Below, one piece after another: positions 48,766 through 56,071 of a stretch of 64,000 bases of DNA. Within the stretch, counting starts at the first letter, position 1; every line of letters begins with the position of its first letter. This stretch comes from Rhodopirellula sp. SM50 (lineage in GTDB: Bacteria; Planctomycetota; Planctomycetia; Pirellulales; Pirellulaceae): the NCBI RefSeq assembly GCF_002289565.1, contig NZ_NTFY01000005.1, positions 62,001 to 126,000 of the forward strand, in the 5' to 3' direction. The notes under the pieces were generated by a model. It did no database searches. It was not told where the DNA came from and saw nothing but the letters and a program-made list of their open reading frames with translations. The translations under genes were made by a program, and so were the position numbers.

Positions 48766-51700
48766 ATGTCGATCGCACAGAGCGAATTCTGGTCTCGTTT
48801 GGTCCAATCCGGGCTCGCCGATGCGGGGAGTTGCCAACGTTATTCGGCCGCGTTCGAACAGTCGCCGGACAAATCGACCGGCGAGGATGCCAAACCGCTC
48901 GCAGCGTTTCTGGTCCGCAGCGGCGTTCTGACGAAGTTTCAGGCCGGCGAGTTGCTCCAACAGCAGCCCCCCACGCTGCGAGTCGGTTCGTTCGTGATCA
49001 CCAGCGATGCGCCGGTGGCGCCGTTTTCGCACTGGATTCCCGTCCAAACGCCGGTTAGCGAAGACGCCCCCGTCCCGCGTTACGGATTCCTGCTCCGCGT
49101 CCCCCTGGCCAGTCTGGATGAAACGCGCCGCGGTTGGCTGGCGGTGCACAGCGAAATCCAAGCGGAATCGTTGCAGGCGATCGAATTGTCCGGCGGCGCC
49201 CAAGCGGGAAACGCCGAGCAAACGGTCGAGATTTTCTCACCGCTGCCCGACGGCGCACCGCTGTTGAACGTGCTGCAATCCAAGCCACCACTGAGCCCCC
49301 GCAAGACCATCCGCATCGGTGTCGACCTTGCCAACGCACTGGAAACGCTGCACCAACCCCTCGACTCCGGATTGGTGATGGCACACGGGGCCGTGGCCGC
49401 CGACCACGCTTGGGTGACTCCCAAGGGCCACGCGATCTTGCTCCGCGATCCCTCTTCCCCCGCGCGCTCGCCTCGCGCCGATCTTTCCACCAGTTGGATC
49501 GACCGCATCGAACCGGCCGCGCTCTATGCCGCACCCGAACTGGCCGATCCGGCCGCCATGCCGACGCCGGCAGCGGATGTCTATTCGTTGGGATGCTTGC
49601 TGTTCTCGTTGCTGCTGGGACGCCCCGCGTTCTCCGGCGAAGACGATCGAGATCTGTTCGCCGCCCACAATGAAGTGCTTCCACCGGAACTGATCGAGGC
49701 GGTCGAGCAAGGTGCCGCCGGAAACCCGCTGCTGCGTGTGCTCGCCTACGCGATGGCGAAAGACCCCGCCGCCCGATTCGGTTCCGCCGGGGCGATGGCC
49801 GAAGCGCTGGAACGGTCCGGTGAACTGCTCGACAGCCAACCGAAGCCAACCCGCCCACCGAAACCGAAACCACCGAAGACGCCCTCGGCTCCGCCGGTCG
49901 AAGCCCCCTCCGCACCACCGGTCGACGTGGCCTCCGCACCACCGGTCGACGTGGCCTCCGCACCACCGGTCGACGTGGCCTCCGCTCCGCCGGTCGAAGC
50001 GTCCTCGGCTCCGCCGGTCGAAGCGTCCTCCGCTCCGCCGGTCGAAGCAGCGTCAAACGCCGCCCCCGAGCCCGCATCGATTGCTCCCCAGCCGCCGGCG
50101 ATCGAAACCCATCCGCCCCGCGAGCAGCCTACACGCGAGCAGCCGCCACCCGAGCTCGCCCCGGTTGGGCAGGCGACGAGCGAGCAGGCGACGACCAAGC
50201 AGGCGTCCATCACCGCCGCGACGCCGGTAGCCGCTGAGTCGGAGCCTGAACAAGCGGAGCCGCCCGCGCGACGAAAACGGCGCAAACGACGCAAGAACCG
50301 GATTCCGATCCTGGCCGGCACGATGATCGTGCCGCTGTTGATGTTGGGCTTGGCGATCGCGCTTCGTGGACGCGGCCCCGTCGAACCTCCGGCCCGGCCG
50401 CGGCCCAGCCCCTCGATCGTCAACCGCGTTCCCGAAGTCCGTGAGTCACGTCGTGAGGTGCCCAGCGACGAGCCGAAGCTGGTCAATGGCTACGAGATTG
50501 TCGACAGCGATCGCCTGCTTTGGGTGCCACCTTATGCCGCCGATTCTCCACCACCTTCCTTGGAGCTTTTGCCGCCCGGGCCGGCGGTGATCGTTTCGAT
50601 TCCCCTGGCACGCGTCACGGCCAGCGCCGATGCGCAAACGTTGACAACGACCTTCGATGCCGAATGGTCCCCGTTGATCGCAATGGTCGAGCAGCGTGCC
50701 GGAGTGACGCGGGACCAGATCCAGCGCTGTACCGCGGCGTTGTTCCCCGGCAAGCAGGGATGGCCCGAAGTCGCCTTGGCAATCGAGTTGGTCGCACCGA
50801 TCGAGCTGGACACGTTGAGCGAGAAATGGCAAGCCTTGGAATCCCGTACCGACAAGGGCGTGATCCTCTACGCCGGCGAGGATCTGGGTGGGGATGCGTA
50901 CTTCGTCGGCGGCGGGGAAAAAGGAAAACCGCCCGAAGACGGCAAGGCCCAACGGTTCGCCGTCGCGTCGTTGGATCGAATTCGCGAGGTCGCCGAGACC
51001 GAAGGCGCGTCGATCCCCTTGGTCCGCAGCATGCAAACGCTGTGGAATCAAACGAGTGTCGAAAGTGACCTGGTCGCTCTGGTCACACCCAACTTTCTGT
51101 TTGCCGACGGCCGCGAGATGTTGGCATCCTCGTTGCCAGAATTCAGAGCCCCGCTCAAACGATGGCTGATCCCCGATGTCGCCGCGTTCTCCTTGTCGGC
51201 CTCGGCAAAGGATGGTGCGTTGTATCTGGAATTGCGTGAACTGCCCAGCGGCGGCGCGACCGCGGCGACGTTGTTGAAATCGTTCCGCGAAACAACTCAA
51301 ACGTGGCCCGATTGGGCGGACAACTTCATTTTGAATTCGGTCCCCGATCCCTCCTGGCGTCTGCTGGCCACTCGCTTGCCGCTGATGTTGCGGTTCGTCA
51401 ACGAACAGACGCGCAGCACGATTCTTGGTGAAACGGTCGTCGCATCGACCTACTTGCCCACCGATGCCGGAACCCAAGTCGCCCTGGGCACGTTCCTGGC
51501 GATGAACACCGAACCCGGACAAGCAAGCCTGGCCGAGACTCCGACCGCGGACCCGCTGACGGTCGACGAGCTGCTGGACCGGCCGATGTCGATTTCGTTC
51601 CTGCAACTTTCTCTGCAGTTCGCCGTCGATGCCGTCGTCGATGAATTCAAATCATCGCTTCCGGCCGGATCGACGATGCCGGATGTCAGCATCATCGGCG

Positions 51701-51972
51701 CCGATCTGGAGAAAAACGGGATCACTCAGAACCAACAGATCCGCAACTTTCAACGCGATGAAGAACCGCTGCGAAAGGTGTTGACCGACTTGGTCTTGGG
51801 CGCCAATCCCGACAAGACGGCGACGGGGCCGAGCGACGCAAAACAGTCACTCGTTTGGGTCGTGCACCCGAAGGGCAAACCGCCCGAGGAAACCGAGATT
51901 CTGATCACGACCCGTGATGCCGCAATAGACAAGTACGAACTGCCGAAAGAGTTCCAGATCCCCACCCCCTAG
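48766..51972 (+). CDS. Membrane pseudokinase-like protein with Ala-Pro-Pro-Val repeats
   Basis: 1068 residues, start ATG 48766. The first 65 residues (LAAFLVRSGVLTKFQAGELL) match the N-terminal region common in planctomycete Ser/Thr kinases. Residues 70-350 follow the kinase outline, including DVYSLGCLLFSLLLGRPAFS for the helix after the activation loop, but there is no GxGxxG-Val-Lys set, no HRD (the place reads AHGAVAADHAW) and no DFG (LLRDPSS). About residues 374-430 are eight or nine 8-residue APPVE/APPVD repeats. A Pro/Gln-rich spacer and a basic stop-transfer-like segment lead to a membrane helix near 514-536. The 430-residue outer domain is unrecognised. Confidence 0.8.
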   Translation: MSIAQSEFWSRLVQSGLADAGSCQRYSAAFEQSPDKSTGEDAKPLAAFLVRSGVLTKFQAGELLQQQPPTLRVGSFVITSDAPVAPFSHWIPVQTPVSEDAPVPRYGFLLRVPLASLDETRRGWLAVHSEIQAESLQAIELSGGAQAGNAEQTVEIFSPLPDGAPLLNVLQSKPPLSPRKTIRIGVDLANALETLHQPLDSGLVMAHGAVAADHAWVTPKGHAILLRDPSSPARSPRADLSTSWIDRIEPAALYAAPELADPAAMPTPAADVYSLGCLLFSLLLGRPAFSGEDDRDLFAAHNEVLPPELIEAVEQGAAGNPLLRVLAYAMAKDPAARFGSAGAMAEALERSGELLDSQPKPTRPPKPKPPKTPSAPPVEAPSAPPVDVASAPPVDVASAPPVDVASAPPVEASSAPPVEASSAPPVEAASNAAPEPASIAPQPPAIETHPPREQPTREQPPPELAPVGQATSEQATTKQASITAATPVAAESEPEQAEPPARRKRRKRRKNRIPILAGTMIVPLLMLGLAIALRGRGPVEPPARPRPSPSIVNRVPEVRESRREVPSDEPKLVNGYEIVDSDRLLWVPPYAADSPPPSLELLPPGPAVIVSIPLARVTASADAQTLTTTFDAEWSPLIAMVEQRAGVTRDQIQRCTAALFPGKQGWPEVALAIELVAPIELDTLSEKWQALESRTDKGVILYAGEDLGGDAYFVGGGEKGKPPEDGKAQRFAVASLDRIREVAETEGASIPLVRSMQTLWNQTSVESDLVALVTPNFLFADGREMLASSLPEFRAPLKRWLIPDVAAFSLSASAKDGALYLELRELPSGGATAATLLKSFRETTQTWPDWADNFILNSVPDPSWRLLATRLPLMLRFVNEQTRSTILGETVVASTYLPTDAGTQVALGTFLAMNTEPGQASLAETPTADPLTVDELLDRPMSISFLQLSLQFAVDAVVDEFKSSLPAGSTMPDVSIIGADLEKNGITQNQQIRNFQRDEEPLRKVLTDLVLGANPDKTATGPSDAKQSLVWVVHPKGKPPEETEILITTRDAAIDKYELPKEFQIPTP
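49885..50048 (+). repeat. 24-bp tandem repeat within the pseudokinase gene
   Basis: Seven or so 24-bp units of the form GTCGACGTGGCCTCCGCACC or GTCGAAGCGTCCTCCGCTCC, in two sub-types, code for Ala-Pro-Pro-Val-(Asp/Glu)-x-Ala-Ser. Three adjacent units are nearly identical, which suggests recent unequal exchange. Confidence 0.85.
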
Positions 51973-52106: not shown

Positions 52107-53750
52107 TTATTCGATCAGATCCAAGAGCGCGTCGACTTTGGCTTCGGCGGGATCGATCAAGGACGCCCGTTGGGCCTGCAAGACGCTGCTTCGCCAATGC
52201 TGTTTGGCGATCTCCGTCGTCGACTCCGCGGCCGCCCCTTGTTGCGGCCGCAGGTGCAGGTCCCAGCCTGCCGTGTCGGGGTTGACGCCGACCACATAGT
52301 CGCCGGGAGTGACCAGTGTCGACTTGCTGCTGCCGTCACCGAGTCCGCGATCAAAATCGATCCGAACCGGTCCGTCCAATCGGTGCTGCATCACCGAACC
52401 GGCTGCGGCGACCTGCGGTTGACCATTGAGCAAGTAATGAAACGCGGCGGGCGATTCACTGGCGTCGAGGGTGACGTCCACCGCGGTCTTTTGACGAAGA
52501 TCCCAGCCGTCCTGATCGACCACCCAGCGATACATGCCGTTGTTGATCGTGTATCGTTTGACGACGCCTTTTCCGTTTTGAAACGCGACGACGAAGGATT
52601 GGTCCAAGGGCACCATCTCGCCCGGTGCCAGCGTGATTTCCAACGCGTCGTCACAGACAAAACTGATCGGTGTCGTGTTGAGCTCTGAGCTGTAGAGCAC
52701 CACGGCGGGAATCCCTTCGGGAAGCTGCATGTCGGTCACGGTACTACCACTCGTTCCCAAGCCGACACCCAACAATCCCGTGATCGCTTCGTCCGGCGCG
52801 TCGCTTTTGGCGGCCGCTTCGGCGATCCGCGTGAACAGGTCGTCGCGGCGTTGCGCCCCCAGCACCCGCGCGATCTCGCTCAGCACGACCATGTTGCGGA
52901 TGTTTTTGGCGCGTTGGGCGATCACTGCGATCTCCTCTCCACTGAGCACAGCGCCGCTGATGCCGGTCAGTTCGCTCCGCAACGCTTCGATCGCTTGCGT
53001 CAGTGTTTTCTGATCGGACTCCGGCGGCAACGCCGCGATTCGATCGGCCGCGTCGGCGGCGTTAAAGATGGACGACCAGGCTTGCCGCGACCCCGCGGCG
53101 GCCAGGGCCGCATCGTGGTTGAGCATCAGGTCGGCGCGCGCCTTTTCGGGATCATTCTTGTTCAATCGATTCTGATAGTCGCGACGCAACGCCTCCAGCG
53201 TGGCATCACCGGCAGATTGGCCGAGGGATCGCATGACGGCCTGATCGATCTGGCCGGCGATTTCAGCCGCTTCGGCACGAATGACCTGACCGGACAAGTG
53301 CGGGCCTGCGGAGACGACGTGGGTCAACGCAATGTCCGTCGGCGACGGATTGGGCGAAACCGACGGTCGCGTCACGATTCGATTTTCCGGCGGATCGACC
53401 GGAGCCGGAGCGTCCGGCGCCGGGGCGACGTCCGATGGCGGCTGAACCTGGTAGGCCCCCGAGGGAACCGATTGCGAATAGGGCTGGGAGCGGATGACTT
53501 GGGGACGTGAAGGACGCGTCGGTGTTCGCCCGCCCCGTCCCGGCAACCTTCCGCCTTTTCCGAATCCTCCGTTCAATCCCTTCTCCAGGATCTGGCCGCC
53601 GGCACGATCCAGGATGACAGGGCCGACGGCCGGCAAGATGACTTTCCCCAACGCTTCGCCGATGATGTCCTGCCCCGAAGAAGCGGACGGAAACGCGGTG
53701 AGTGCCCCAGCGGCGGCCAGAAGACAAAGGGTTTTGTGTCGTCGTTTCAT
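52107..53750 (-). CDS. Secreted protein of unknown function (547 aa)
   Basis: Not recognised. The ATG at 53750 opens a signal peptide (HKTLCLLAAAGALTAFPSAS). A Gly/Arg/Pro-rich stretch follows (GGFGKGGRLPGRGGRTPTRP, then PAPDAPAPVDPP), then about 200 residues of helical sequence rich in Ala (AEAAEIAGQIDQAVMRSLGQ, IFNAADAADRIAALPPESDQ), and a beta-rich C-terminal third (AVVLYSSELNTTPISFVCDD, VVAFQNGKGVVKRYTINNGM, GDYVVGVNPDTAGWDLHLRP). The last third resembles surface or matrix proteins. It lies downstream of the dead ABC exporter and ABC-2 permease on the same strand but 370 bp away, so a link is possible but not shown. Confidence 0.75.
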   Translation of the reverse strand: MKRRHKTLCLLAAAGALTAFPSASSGQDIIGEALGKVILPAVGPVILDRAGGQILEKGLNGGFGKGGRLPGRGGRTPTRPSRPQVIRSQPYSQSVPSGAYQVQPPSDVAPAPDAPAPVDPPENRIVTRPSVSPNPSPTDIALTHVVSAGPHLSGQVIRAEAAEIAGQIDQAVMRSLGQSAGDATLEALRRDYQNRLNKNDPEKARADLMLNHDAALAAAGSRQAWSSIFNAADAADRIAALPPESDQKTLTQAIEALRSELTGISGAVLSGEEIAVIAQRAKNIRNMVVLSEIARVLGAQRRDDLFTRIAEAAAKSDAPDEAITGLLGVGLGTSGSTVTDMQLPEGIPAVVLYSSELNTTPISFVCDDALEITLAPGEMVPLDQSFVVAFQNGKGVVKRYTINNGMYRWVVDQDGWDLRQKTAVDVTLDASESPAAFHYLLNGQPQVAAAGSVMQHRLDGPVRIDFDRGLGDGSSKSTLVTPGDYVVGVNPDTAGWDLHLRPQQGAAAESTTEIAKQHWRSSVLQAQRASLIDPAEAKVDALLDLIE

Positions 53751-54120: not shown

Positions 54121-55941
54121 TTATCGTCCCGGGCGGTACGGGTTGAACAACAGATAATTCAGATGGCGATACAGATCGCTGTCACTCAGCAATTCGGAAT
54201 GTTTTCCTTCGCCGGCGAGATTGGGGCCGTTGAGCAGAATCACGCGATCGGCGGTTCTTAAGGTTTGCAGGCGTCGCGGCAGCATCACGACCAACGATCC
54301 CTGGTCGACCAGTTTTTTGATCGCCTTCAAGCACGGATCATCGGCCAGTTGCGCGTTCGGTGCCGGCGGTTCGTTGACCAGCAAGATCGGCGGGCGATGC
54401 AGCAGCGCCCGCGCCAGCCCGATCCCATAGGTCGCTTCGGTGGACAACGAAAATCCTTCGACCGATGCATACGTCGACAGTCCTTCGGGAAGACGCTGGA
54501 TCTGTTCATACACATCGACTTCGCGTAACGCATCGACGATGTCCGCGTTGCTGATCGTGCCGCCGCTTCCGGCCGACAGGTTTTCTTCGATCGTCCCATC
54601 CCACAACGGGCCCGACGGTTCGATCCACATCACGTTCTTGGCCAGCGACGCGGGGTGCACTTCCAACAGCTTCAGCCCATCGATTCGAACTTCGCCTGAG
54701 CCCGGACGTCCGAACCCCATCAACAATTCCACCATCGCTTGCGGAGACACCGAATCGGTTCCCAACAGTGTCACCAGCGACTTGGGCGTGAACTCCGTCG
54801 TGATGTGATTGAGGATCGCTTGGCCGTGCGAATCGGCCAGCGTCACGTCACGAAACTCGACGCCGTCCCGCAGCCCGGCCAATCCGACGCGTTGTTCCGA
54901 CGGCGTCGCTCCATCGCTTTTGCGCAAGTACGCATAGACGGCATCGCAGGCCGTCCCGCTGGCGCGCAATCGTCGGGCCAGTGTTTGCAATCGCCACACT
55001 CCCGACACCGCGCCGGCCAGTGCCAACCCCAACACCACTGCCGACGAAAGGCTTAACCCGGAGTCGGTCTCCAGCAGATTCAGCCCCAACCCGATGACCA
55101 TGATGGCGGTGGCCGCCGACGTGGCCAAGAACAGCAGCGGCCAGACACGTCCCCGCCGGGAATCGTTTTCTGCCAATTTCTGATACAGCTGGTCCAGTTC
55201 GTGCTGAAACGAAGCTTCGGCAATCCCCTGCGCCTGCAGGCGAGCCATCTTGGGGGCGCGTCCGACCAACGCCGCCATCTGGGCACGCAACTGCGGAAGC
55301 TCCCACCGACCGGCTTCGTCCGTGTCGCCGCCGTGCACCTGACGATACAAACGCCAAACCATCACGCCGCTGACCACCGCGACGATGGCCAACCAGATAT
55401 GAACCAACAGGGCCAGCGACACGCACCCGAGCAACAGAAACAGGCTGCGGGGCAACGAGCGATACCAAAGCGACAGCCCGGCTTGAACCGACGGCAGGTG
55501 CCGACCGATCAGCTTCTGAGCGTTCAACGATTGCGCCGCGGCACCTTCCAGCTCGGCGCGACGCACGCTCTGTTTCAAGACTTTTTGATGCAGCGACTTG
55601 GTGATCGCCGCGGCACGACGATCGGCCAAGCATCGATGACGCCACACCGCAGCGCTCAATACCACCGCCATCGCAAACGCCAGCGACGTGAGCTGGGTGA
55701 GTTGGACCAGCGGCGGCTGATCGACAAACGACGCCGGAAGCCGGATGTACAGATTGGCTCCCAGCCGTACCGTCGATTGGCTCAGCTCTCCGGTCTGCAG
55801 CAATAGCGAAATCAGGCCGACGACCAAGACGATGCACGGGACCAGCAGTCCGGCGAGCGTCGCCCAAAATAACGAGAACAGTTTGCCCGGGCCCGCCTCC
55901 GGTTCATTGCGGGCTGCCGAGAGGGTGTGAAATCGATTCAA
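54121..55941 (-). CDS. ABC-exporter homologue with degenerate ATPase motifs
   Basis: 606 residues from TTG 55941, with GGGGAG 8 bp upstream. The membrane half has about six helices (LFWATLAGLLVPCIVLVVGL, PRSLFLLLGCVSLALLVHIW). The nucleotide-binding half aligns in order with ABC exporters (VEFRDVTLADSHGQAILNHI, then SGEVRIDGLKLLEVHPASLA, VMWIEPSGPLWDGTIEENLS), yet the Walker A place reads LLGTDSVSPQAMVELLM with no GK(S/T), the signature place reads FSLSTEATYGIGLARALL, Walker B reads ILLVNEPP with Asn for Asp, and the His switch place reads VVMLPRRLQ. Frame and length are intact, so this is a selected pseudo-ATPase rather than a decayed gene. Confidence 0.85.
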   Translation of the reverse strand: MNRFHTLSAARNEPEAGPGKLFSLFWATLAGLLVPCIVLVVGLISLLLQTGELSQSTVRLGANLYIRLPASFVDQPPLVQLTQLTSLAFAMAVVLSAAVWRHRCLADRRAAAITKSLHQKVLKQSVRRAELEGAAAQSLNAQKLIGRHLPSVQAGLSLWYRSLPRSLFLLLGCVSLALLVHIWLAIVAVVSGVMVWRLYRQVHGGDTDEAGRWELPQLRAQMAALVGRAPKMARLQAQGIAEASFQHELDQLYQKLAENDSRRGRVWPLLFLATSAATAIMVIGLGLNLLETDSGLSLSSAVVLGLALAGAVSGVWRLQTLARRLRASGTACDAVYAYLRKSDGATPSEQRVGLAGLRDGVEFRDVTLADSHGQAILNHITTEFTPKSLVTLLGTDSVSPQAMVELLMGFGRPGSGEVRIDGLKLLEVHPASLAKNVMWIEPSGPLWDGTIEENLSAGSGGTISNADIVDALREVDVYEQIQRLPEGLSTYASVEGFSLSTEATYGIGLARALLHRPPILLVNEPPAPNAQLADDPCLKAIKKLVDQGSLVVMLPRRLQTLRTADRVILLNGPNLAGEGKHSELLSDSDLYRHLNYLLFNPYRPGR

Positions 55942-56071
55942 TGCAACGGCTCCCCGATGATAAACGCCACTGAGTCTTCGGGGAACGAAACGTCTGTTGA
56001 TCCAATCCGAAGGTCTCCGCAGTGCGTCCGGCGTGTGTCGCCATGCGGAAACCTGGTTTTTCGTTCACCCA

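Follow-up and report, generated by a model that had tools for sequence, protein, structure and literature searches.

The window, a stretch of 64,000 nucleotides from Rhodopirellula sp. SM50, encodes an ABC exporter homologue, here called pseudo-ABC, in which nearly all parts of the ATP site are lost. Sequence comparison shows that the loss is spread family-wide, that the gene is under purifying selection and that it is paired with the gene of an ABC-2 type permease, F1. The whole exporter-type family seems to be without a working ATP site, yet it is old, strongly selected and accompanied by a permease lacking an obvious ATPase. An old, preserved protein of this kind, usually encoded beside a permease gene, probably has a function other than ATP-powered pumping alone. 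Because the gene upstream is that of an ABC-2 permease, a partner role is the likeliest of these functions: pseudo-ABC could be a non-hydrolytic subunit or partner of F1, a reading drawn from gene order to which we give about an even chance. The features are listed in Table 1.

Table 1. Pseudo-ABC, its domains and motif places, and the adjacent permease gene (window coordinates).
Feature	Position	Strand	Basis
Pseudo-ABC exporter gene, 606 codons + stop, TTG start	54121..55941	-	ORF and translation, exporter homology, 164 homologues
Membrane domain, residues 1-345, boundary approximate	54907..55941	-	Profile match to exporter chains reaching membrane domain
Nucleotide-binding domain (NBD), dead, residues 360-598	54148..54864	-	Model pLDDT 86.9, pTM 0.86; Foldseek to MsbA NBD E 5.2e-24
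Former Walker A, residues 394-401, GTDSVSPQ	54739..54762	-	Counterpart of GxxGxGK[ST] in the alignment with intact exporters
Former signature motif, residues 499-503, LSTEA	54433..54447	-	Alignment with intact exporters
Walker B position, PILLVNEP (residues 518-525); no Asp, Glu524 retained	54367..54390	-	Glu 164/164, Asp 5/164
Switch position, PRRL (residues 555-558); no His, Arg557 retained	54268..54279	-	Arg 164/164, intact exporters 12/20
Family-specific C-terminal motif, residues 590-602, LYRHLNYLLFNPY	54136..54174	-	Pattern in 159/164 of family, 0/20 intact exporters
GGGGAG, putative ribosome-binding site 5' of TTG	55950..55955	-	Same position in 6/6 orthologues; function inferred
F1, ABC-2 type permease, 596 aa	56072..57862	-	Directly upstream of pseudo-ABC, 130 nt gap, same strand

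Gene, Domains and Homology to ABC Exporters

The frame of pseudo-ABC is open from the TTG at 55941 to the stop at 54121, giving 606 aa from 606 codons, and the first-pass annotation was right to describe it as intact. All six close orthologues inspected (L011–L016) share the TTG start, with GGGGAG just 5' of it in each. The promoter scan gave no sigma-70-like promoter and the terminator scan gave 11 terminator-like sites (5.4 expected); neither yielded a usable signal. PADLOC gave no match at E 0.01 for pseudo-ABC or F1.

The best NCBIfam exporter model matches pseudo-ABC at E 9.4e-32, hundreds of bits below the cut-off of that model, and all NCBIfam exporter models listed for the protein stand far below their own cut-offs. 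The best exporter chain in the PDB is found at E 4.7e-39, and the match to Pfam ABC_tran is sub-threshold (21.8 bits, cut-off 25). By these comparisons the homology of pseudo-ABC to ABC exporters, as proposed in the first pass, is far beyond chance. ABC_tran is matched at E up to 1 by 41 of 41 family members and ABC_membrane (PF00664) by 26 of 41, the window protein itself not being among the latter. Profile A2 spans the membrane domain and the NBD of exporter chains (best E 3.3e-93), showing that the domain fusion of exporters is present.

Structure prediction, proposed earlier as a check, returned an ABC fold for the NBD with the tail (residues 350–606; pLDDT 86.9, pTM 0.86), which Foldseek matched to the NBD of MsbA (E 5.2e-24) and of TM287/288 (E 1.7e-23). 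Three of the 11 alignment rows used as input are ordinary exporters and aid the prediction, so the model indicates compatibility with the normal ABC fold rather than proof of it. The full-length model, built from eight close sequences, reached a pLDDT of 43.8.

Pseudo-ABC shares with type IV ABC exporters (MsbA, TM287/288, ABCB1) the domain order, a profile match that covers both the membrane domain and the NBD, and the NBD fold. In contrast to them, it lacks Walker A, the signature and the Walker B Asp, and carries a C-terminal motif specific for its family. By its sequence, pseudo-ABC descends from type IV exporters while failing their motif tests. Similarity-based annotation would probably label such proteins as ATP-driven transporters.

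Degeneration of the ATPase Motifs

Motifs were compared in 164 non-redundant homologues (42 duplicates dropped), drawn from a single planctomycete class and spread over nine coded families, with an intact control set of 20 exporter rows from 18 loci (17 next-best-match rows and three from the window genome). A further control locus, L005, contributed no row. At the Walker A place the window protein reads LLGTDSVSPQAM, without GK[ST]. GxxGxGK[ST] is found in 20/20 intact exporters but in 0/164 homologues, and the glycine pattern of the motif is missing from all 164. Its Lys is present in 33 homologues, all of which belong to families f5, f115 and f112; f1 and f4 have none, nor does any member of the window's own family. 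The signature place reads LSTEATYGIGLARA instead of LSGGQ, and LSGG[QE] occurs in none of the 164 homologues, whereas 18/20 intact exporters possess it. The first-pass annotation had reported the lack of GK(S/T) and of LSGGQ in this protein, and the alignment of homologues that it recommended extends both losses to the whole planctomycete set.

Walker B of the window protein (ILLVNEPP) has Asn in place of the Mg-binding Asp, which is present in 5/164 homologues vs 20/20 intact exporters. The catalytic Glu (E524) is kept, as in 164/164 homologues (18/20 intact exporters), so one catalytic residue survives in pseudo-ABC. The Asn substitution had thus been recognized correctly in the first pass, but the residue lost was taken for the catalytic one. 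At the switch (LPRRLQTLR), Arg occupies the position of His. The disappearance of the His, as stated earlier, applies to the window protein and not to the family, since 55/164 homologues possess it; the Arg following this position is found in 164/164 homologues vs 12/20 intact exporters. The Q-loop of the window protein (MWIEPSG) is without Gln, which 49/164 homologues have. The broader statement that all ATPase motifs are degenerate stands for the window protein's Walker A, signature, Walker B Asp and switch His, and falls for its Walker B Glu.

Nucleotide binding may survive in those members of f5, f112 and f115 that have retained the Lys of Walker A, the Gln of the Q-loop and the His of the switch. 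The series from f5, f112 and f115, where Lys, Gln and His are often kept, to the window's family, where Lys is always lost, records a stepwise loss.

Degenerate ABC exporters are mainly known from pairs in which the other subunit still hydrolyzes ATP. The heterodimeric or full exporters with one degenerate site (TM287/288, TmrAB, ABCB11) resemble the pseudo-ABC family in that a non-canonical NBD is kept by selection. Their hallmark, according to PMC7544095, is a missing Walker B Glu; the pseudo-ABC family is the reverse, the Glu being kept and Walker A and the signature lost.

C-Terminal Tail

The C-terminal pattern [YF][RK][HRQ]-x(2,3)-[YF]-x2-[FY] occurs in 159/164 family members and the literal YRH in 148/164, whereas neither is found in the 20 intact rows. 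Among the four stretches compared, the tail is the most conserved (mean pairwise identity 0.57 vs 0.33 in intact rows). In TmrAB a C-terminal element holds the NBD dimer together (PMC7756269), and by analogy the tail of pseudo-ABC could do the same.

Distribution, Ancestry and Selection

A copy 99.5% identical to the window protein is present in the record Planctomycetes bacterium TBK1r, and further copies occur in Stieleria, Rhodopirellula sp. JC639 and Roseiconus. Homologues were gathered with the wider profiles A2 and A4; A2 at 1e-70 understated the spread, and A4 was used instead. At E 1e-60 or better, a single match per genome was obtained in 70 of the 199 genomes of the window's family (its own included), and these represent 15 of 68 genera. 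In a set of 45 genomes, all match at 1e-60 and only 38 at E 1e-111 or better; the seven weaker ones may represent intact paralogues or fragments at contig edges.

The phylum sample comprised 392 genomes, 40 of them from the class. Pseudo-ABC was found in 29 of the 40 at E 8e-167 or better, and the best match outside the class (1.2e-110) is an intact exporter. For the 11 class genomes without pseudo-ABC, the next-best match was checked in four and was an intact exporter in each. Scans of viral contigs revealed no relatives of pseudo-ABC. In a tree computed by a quick method with the motif columns removed, a single branch (SH-aLRT 100) divides 61 family rows from 15 intact rows. The family is apparently vertically inherited.

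The window copy and five relatives with dS < 1 give dN/dS values of 0.021, 0.055, 0.079, 0.065 and 0.077. In all five comparisons the NBD is the tighter part (0.013–0.037 vs 0.029–0.124 for the membrane domain). Six pairs with higher dS, near saturation, give 0.07–0.20. Mean pairwise identity in the family is likewise higher in the NBD (0.38) than in the membrane domain (0.25). The dN/dS values show purifying selection, which weighs more heavily on the dead NBD than on the membrane domain. Since the NBD identity of the family lies below that of intact exporters (0.51), the dead NBD is relaxed relative to a working one.

A selected function other than ATP-driven export, suggested in the first pass with a scaffold, sensor or anchor as examples, gains support from the absence of Walker A and LSGG[QE] in all 164 homologues and from dN/dS of 0.02–0.08. 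Intact motifs in close relatives combined with a high non-synonymous rate, which would indicate recent decay, were looked for and not found; the intact exporters that turned up, 17 rows of next-best matches and 11/11 further next-best matches, all lie beyond the family. By its distribution and sequence conservation, pseudo-ABC is an old protein preserved across the planctomycete class rather than a product of recent decay. The loss of the nucleotide machinery from an ancestral ATP-driven exporter probably predates the split of the families sampled in this class.

Permease F1

F1 matches Pfam ABC2_membrane_2 at 26.6 bits, just under the cut-off of 27.2, and its assignment to ABC-2 permeases (PF12679) rests on this weak match. 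No relative of F1 was found in the PDB by sequence. Its FEDRDLA end is invariant in 21/21 rows. F1 of the window's family has an extra N-terminal membrane and soluble part which is absent from 10 f4 rows (596 vs about 310–350 aa).

Among the 106 loci with a family member, five are cut off upstream, leaving 101 testable loci, which include close relatives and are not independent. In 75 of them F1 is the next gene upstream, on the same strand and at a gap of -23 to 365 nt, with all nine coded families represented; in the other 26 it is not. In a search of 26 genomes F1 was detected in 25. The two genes are apart in 20 of the 26, 19 of which possess F1, and the one miss is a genome 82% complete. 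In the phylum sample F1 is present in 40/40 class genomes, 11 of which have no pseudo-ABC, so F1 does not need pseudo-ABC. F1 is thus the more widespread of the two, and pseudo-ABC is almost always found with F1.

In other classes of the phylum, an F1-like permease is followed by a metallophosphoesterase (~241 aa) in each of the six loci inspected (L199, L200, L201, L203, L204, L205), and no exporter follows it in any of the eight loci scanned. In the window, no ABC ATPase gene lies directly beside F1. A scan of 28 F1 loci for Walker A gave one ATPase-like ORF, 3.5 kb upstream (L193), and 20 stretches of the window's own genome with ABC ATPases offered no convincing partner for F1.

Functional Interpretation

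In the reading we favor, pseudo-ABC joins a membrane domain of the exporter type to an NBD of retained ABC fold in which a normal ATP site cannot form. It probably originated from an ATP-driven exporter whose nucleotide machinery was lost before the families of the class diverged. The dead NBD, together with the conserved C-terminal helix, could serve as a cytoplasmic platform holding or regulating F1, and an ATPase encoded elsewhere would perhaps join the two. The order of constraint (tail > NBD > membrane domain) fits a protein–protein platform better than a substrate-specific pump. As both Walker A and the signature are missing, the site of a partner could not rescue the NBD of pseudo-ABC. 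The lack of ATPase activity, the dimer state and the contact with F1 are what we infer for this protein. Points counted against partnership with F1 are the separation of the genes in 26/101 loci, the occurrence of F1 alone in 11/40 class genomes, the lower conservation of the NBD compared with intact exporters, the possible nucleotide binders of f5, f112 and f115, and the identification of F1 itself by a weak Pfam match with no PDB relative.

A more far-reaching version of the F1 partnership, which we put forward tentatively, is that an ABC-derived membrane complex without its own ATPase exists in this class. It would combine an orphan ABC-2 permease with a fully dead exporter whose NBD is now a structural or regulatory platform, possibly in connection with the unusual envelope. 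If true, this would be an exporter-type ABC family that has given up both ATP sites and in which NBD and tail are more tightly constrained than the membrane domain. The family allows a direct test of whether an ABC exporter fold with its NBD could be useful without nucleotide turnover.

Alternatively, with a probability well short of that of the F1 partnership, pseudo-ABC could function as a stand-alone ATP-independent homodimer, namely a secondary transporter, a lipid-binding protein or a membrane sensor in which the NBD would act as a structural brace. In principle this would resemble SbmA/BacA of the SLiPT family, whose exporter-type membrane fold is thought to work without ATP and without an NBD (PMC13316013). 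The 26 loci in which pseudo-ABC lies apart from F1 agree with independent action. However, SbmA/BacA is proton-driven and has no NBD, whereas pseudo-ABC keeps a constrained one; moreover, the membrane domain is its less conserved part, and the frequent pairing with F1 would be left unexplained.

The Glu of Walker B and the Arg that follows the switch, kept in 164/164 homologues, could also belong to a ligand-controlled switch that binds nucleotide in an altered manner, or another ligand, without hydrolysis. This is unlikely: many members of f5, f112 and f115 do retain the Lys of Walker A, the Gln of the Q-loop and the switch His, but Lys is found in no member of the window's family and the Walker A glycine pattern is missing throughout.

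Slightly less likely still is a heterodimer of pseudo-ABC and some canonical exporter whose gene lies at another place in the genome. Heterodimeric exporters in which one site is degenerate are common (PMC7756269), and the window genome does have intact exporters at other places. However, the Walker A of such a partner would need the signature of pseudo-ABC, which is also lost (LSGG[QE] in 0/164), so both sites of the heterodimer would be dead. No intact exporter was recognized beside pseudo-ABC in the annotated loci; the upstream neighbor is F1 in 75/101 loci, and the neighbors in the other 26 are only partly identified. A decaying pseudogene or an artefact, which the loss of nearly all catalytic motifs could bring to mind, is ruled out for practical purposes by the open frames of relatives, the low dN/dS, the shared loss and the shared new C-terminal motif.

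A search of open-licence literature by title and abstract, with subscription papers and preprints outside its scope, found no description of the pseudo-ABC family. An insert specific to Planctomycetes is named for an ABC transporter protein in PMC3444138, with no tie to the pseudo-ABC gene.

Neighboring Genes

Just downstream of pseudo-ABC, a 547-aa protein is encoded at 52107–53750 (minus strand), without a significant match in Pfam or NCBIfam. Among the loci compared it occurs near pseudo-ABC only in L011, L012 and L014. A 1068-aa protein is encoded at 48766–51972 (plus strand) and shows a partial protein-kinase match over residues 253–301 (30.0 bits, Pfam cut-off 31.7); perhaps it is a pseudokinase. 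Its orthologues are located near pseudo-ABC in L011, L012, L014 and L015.
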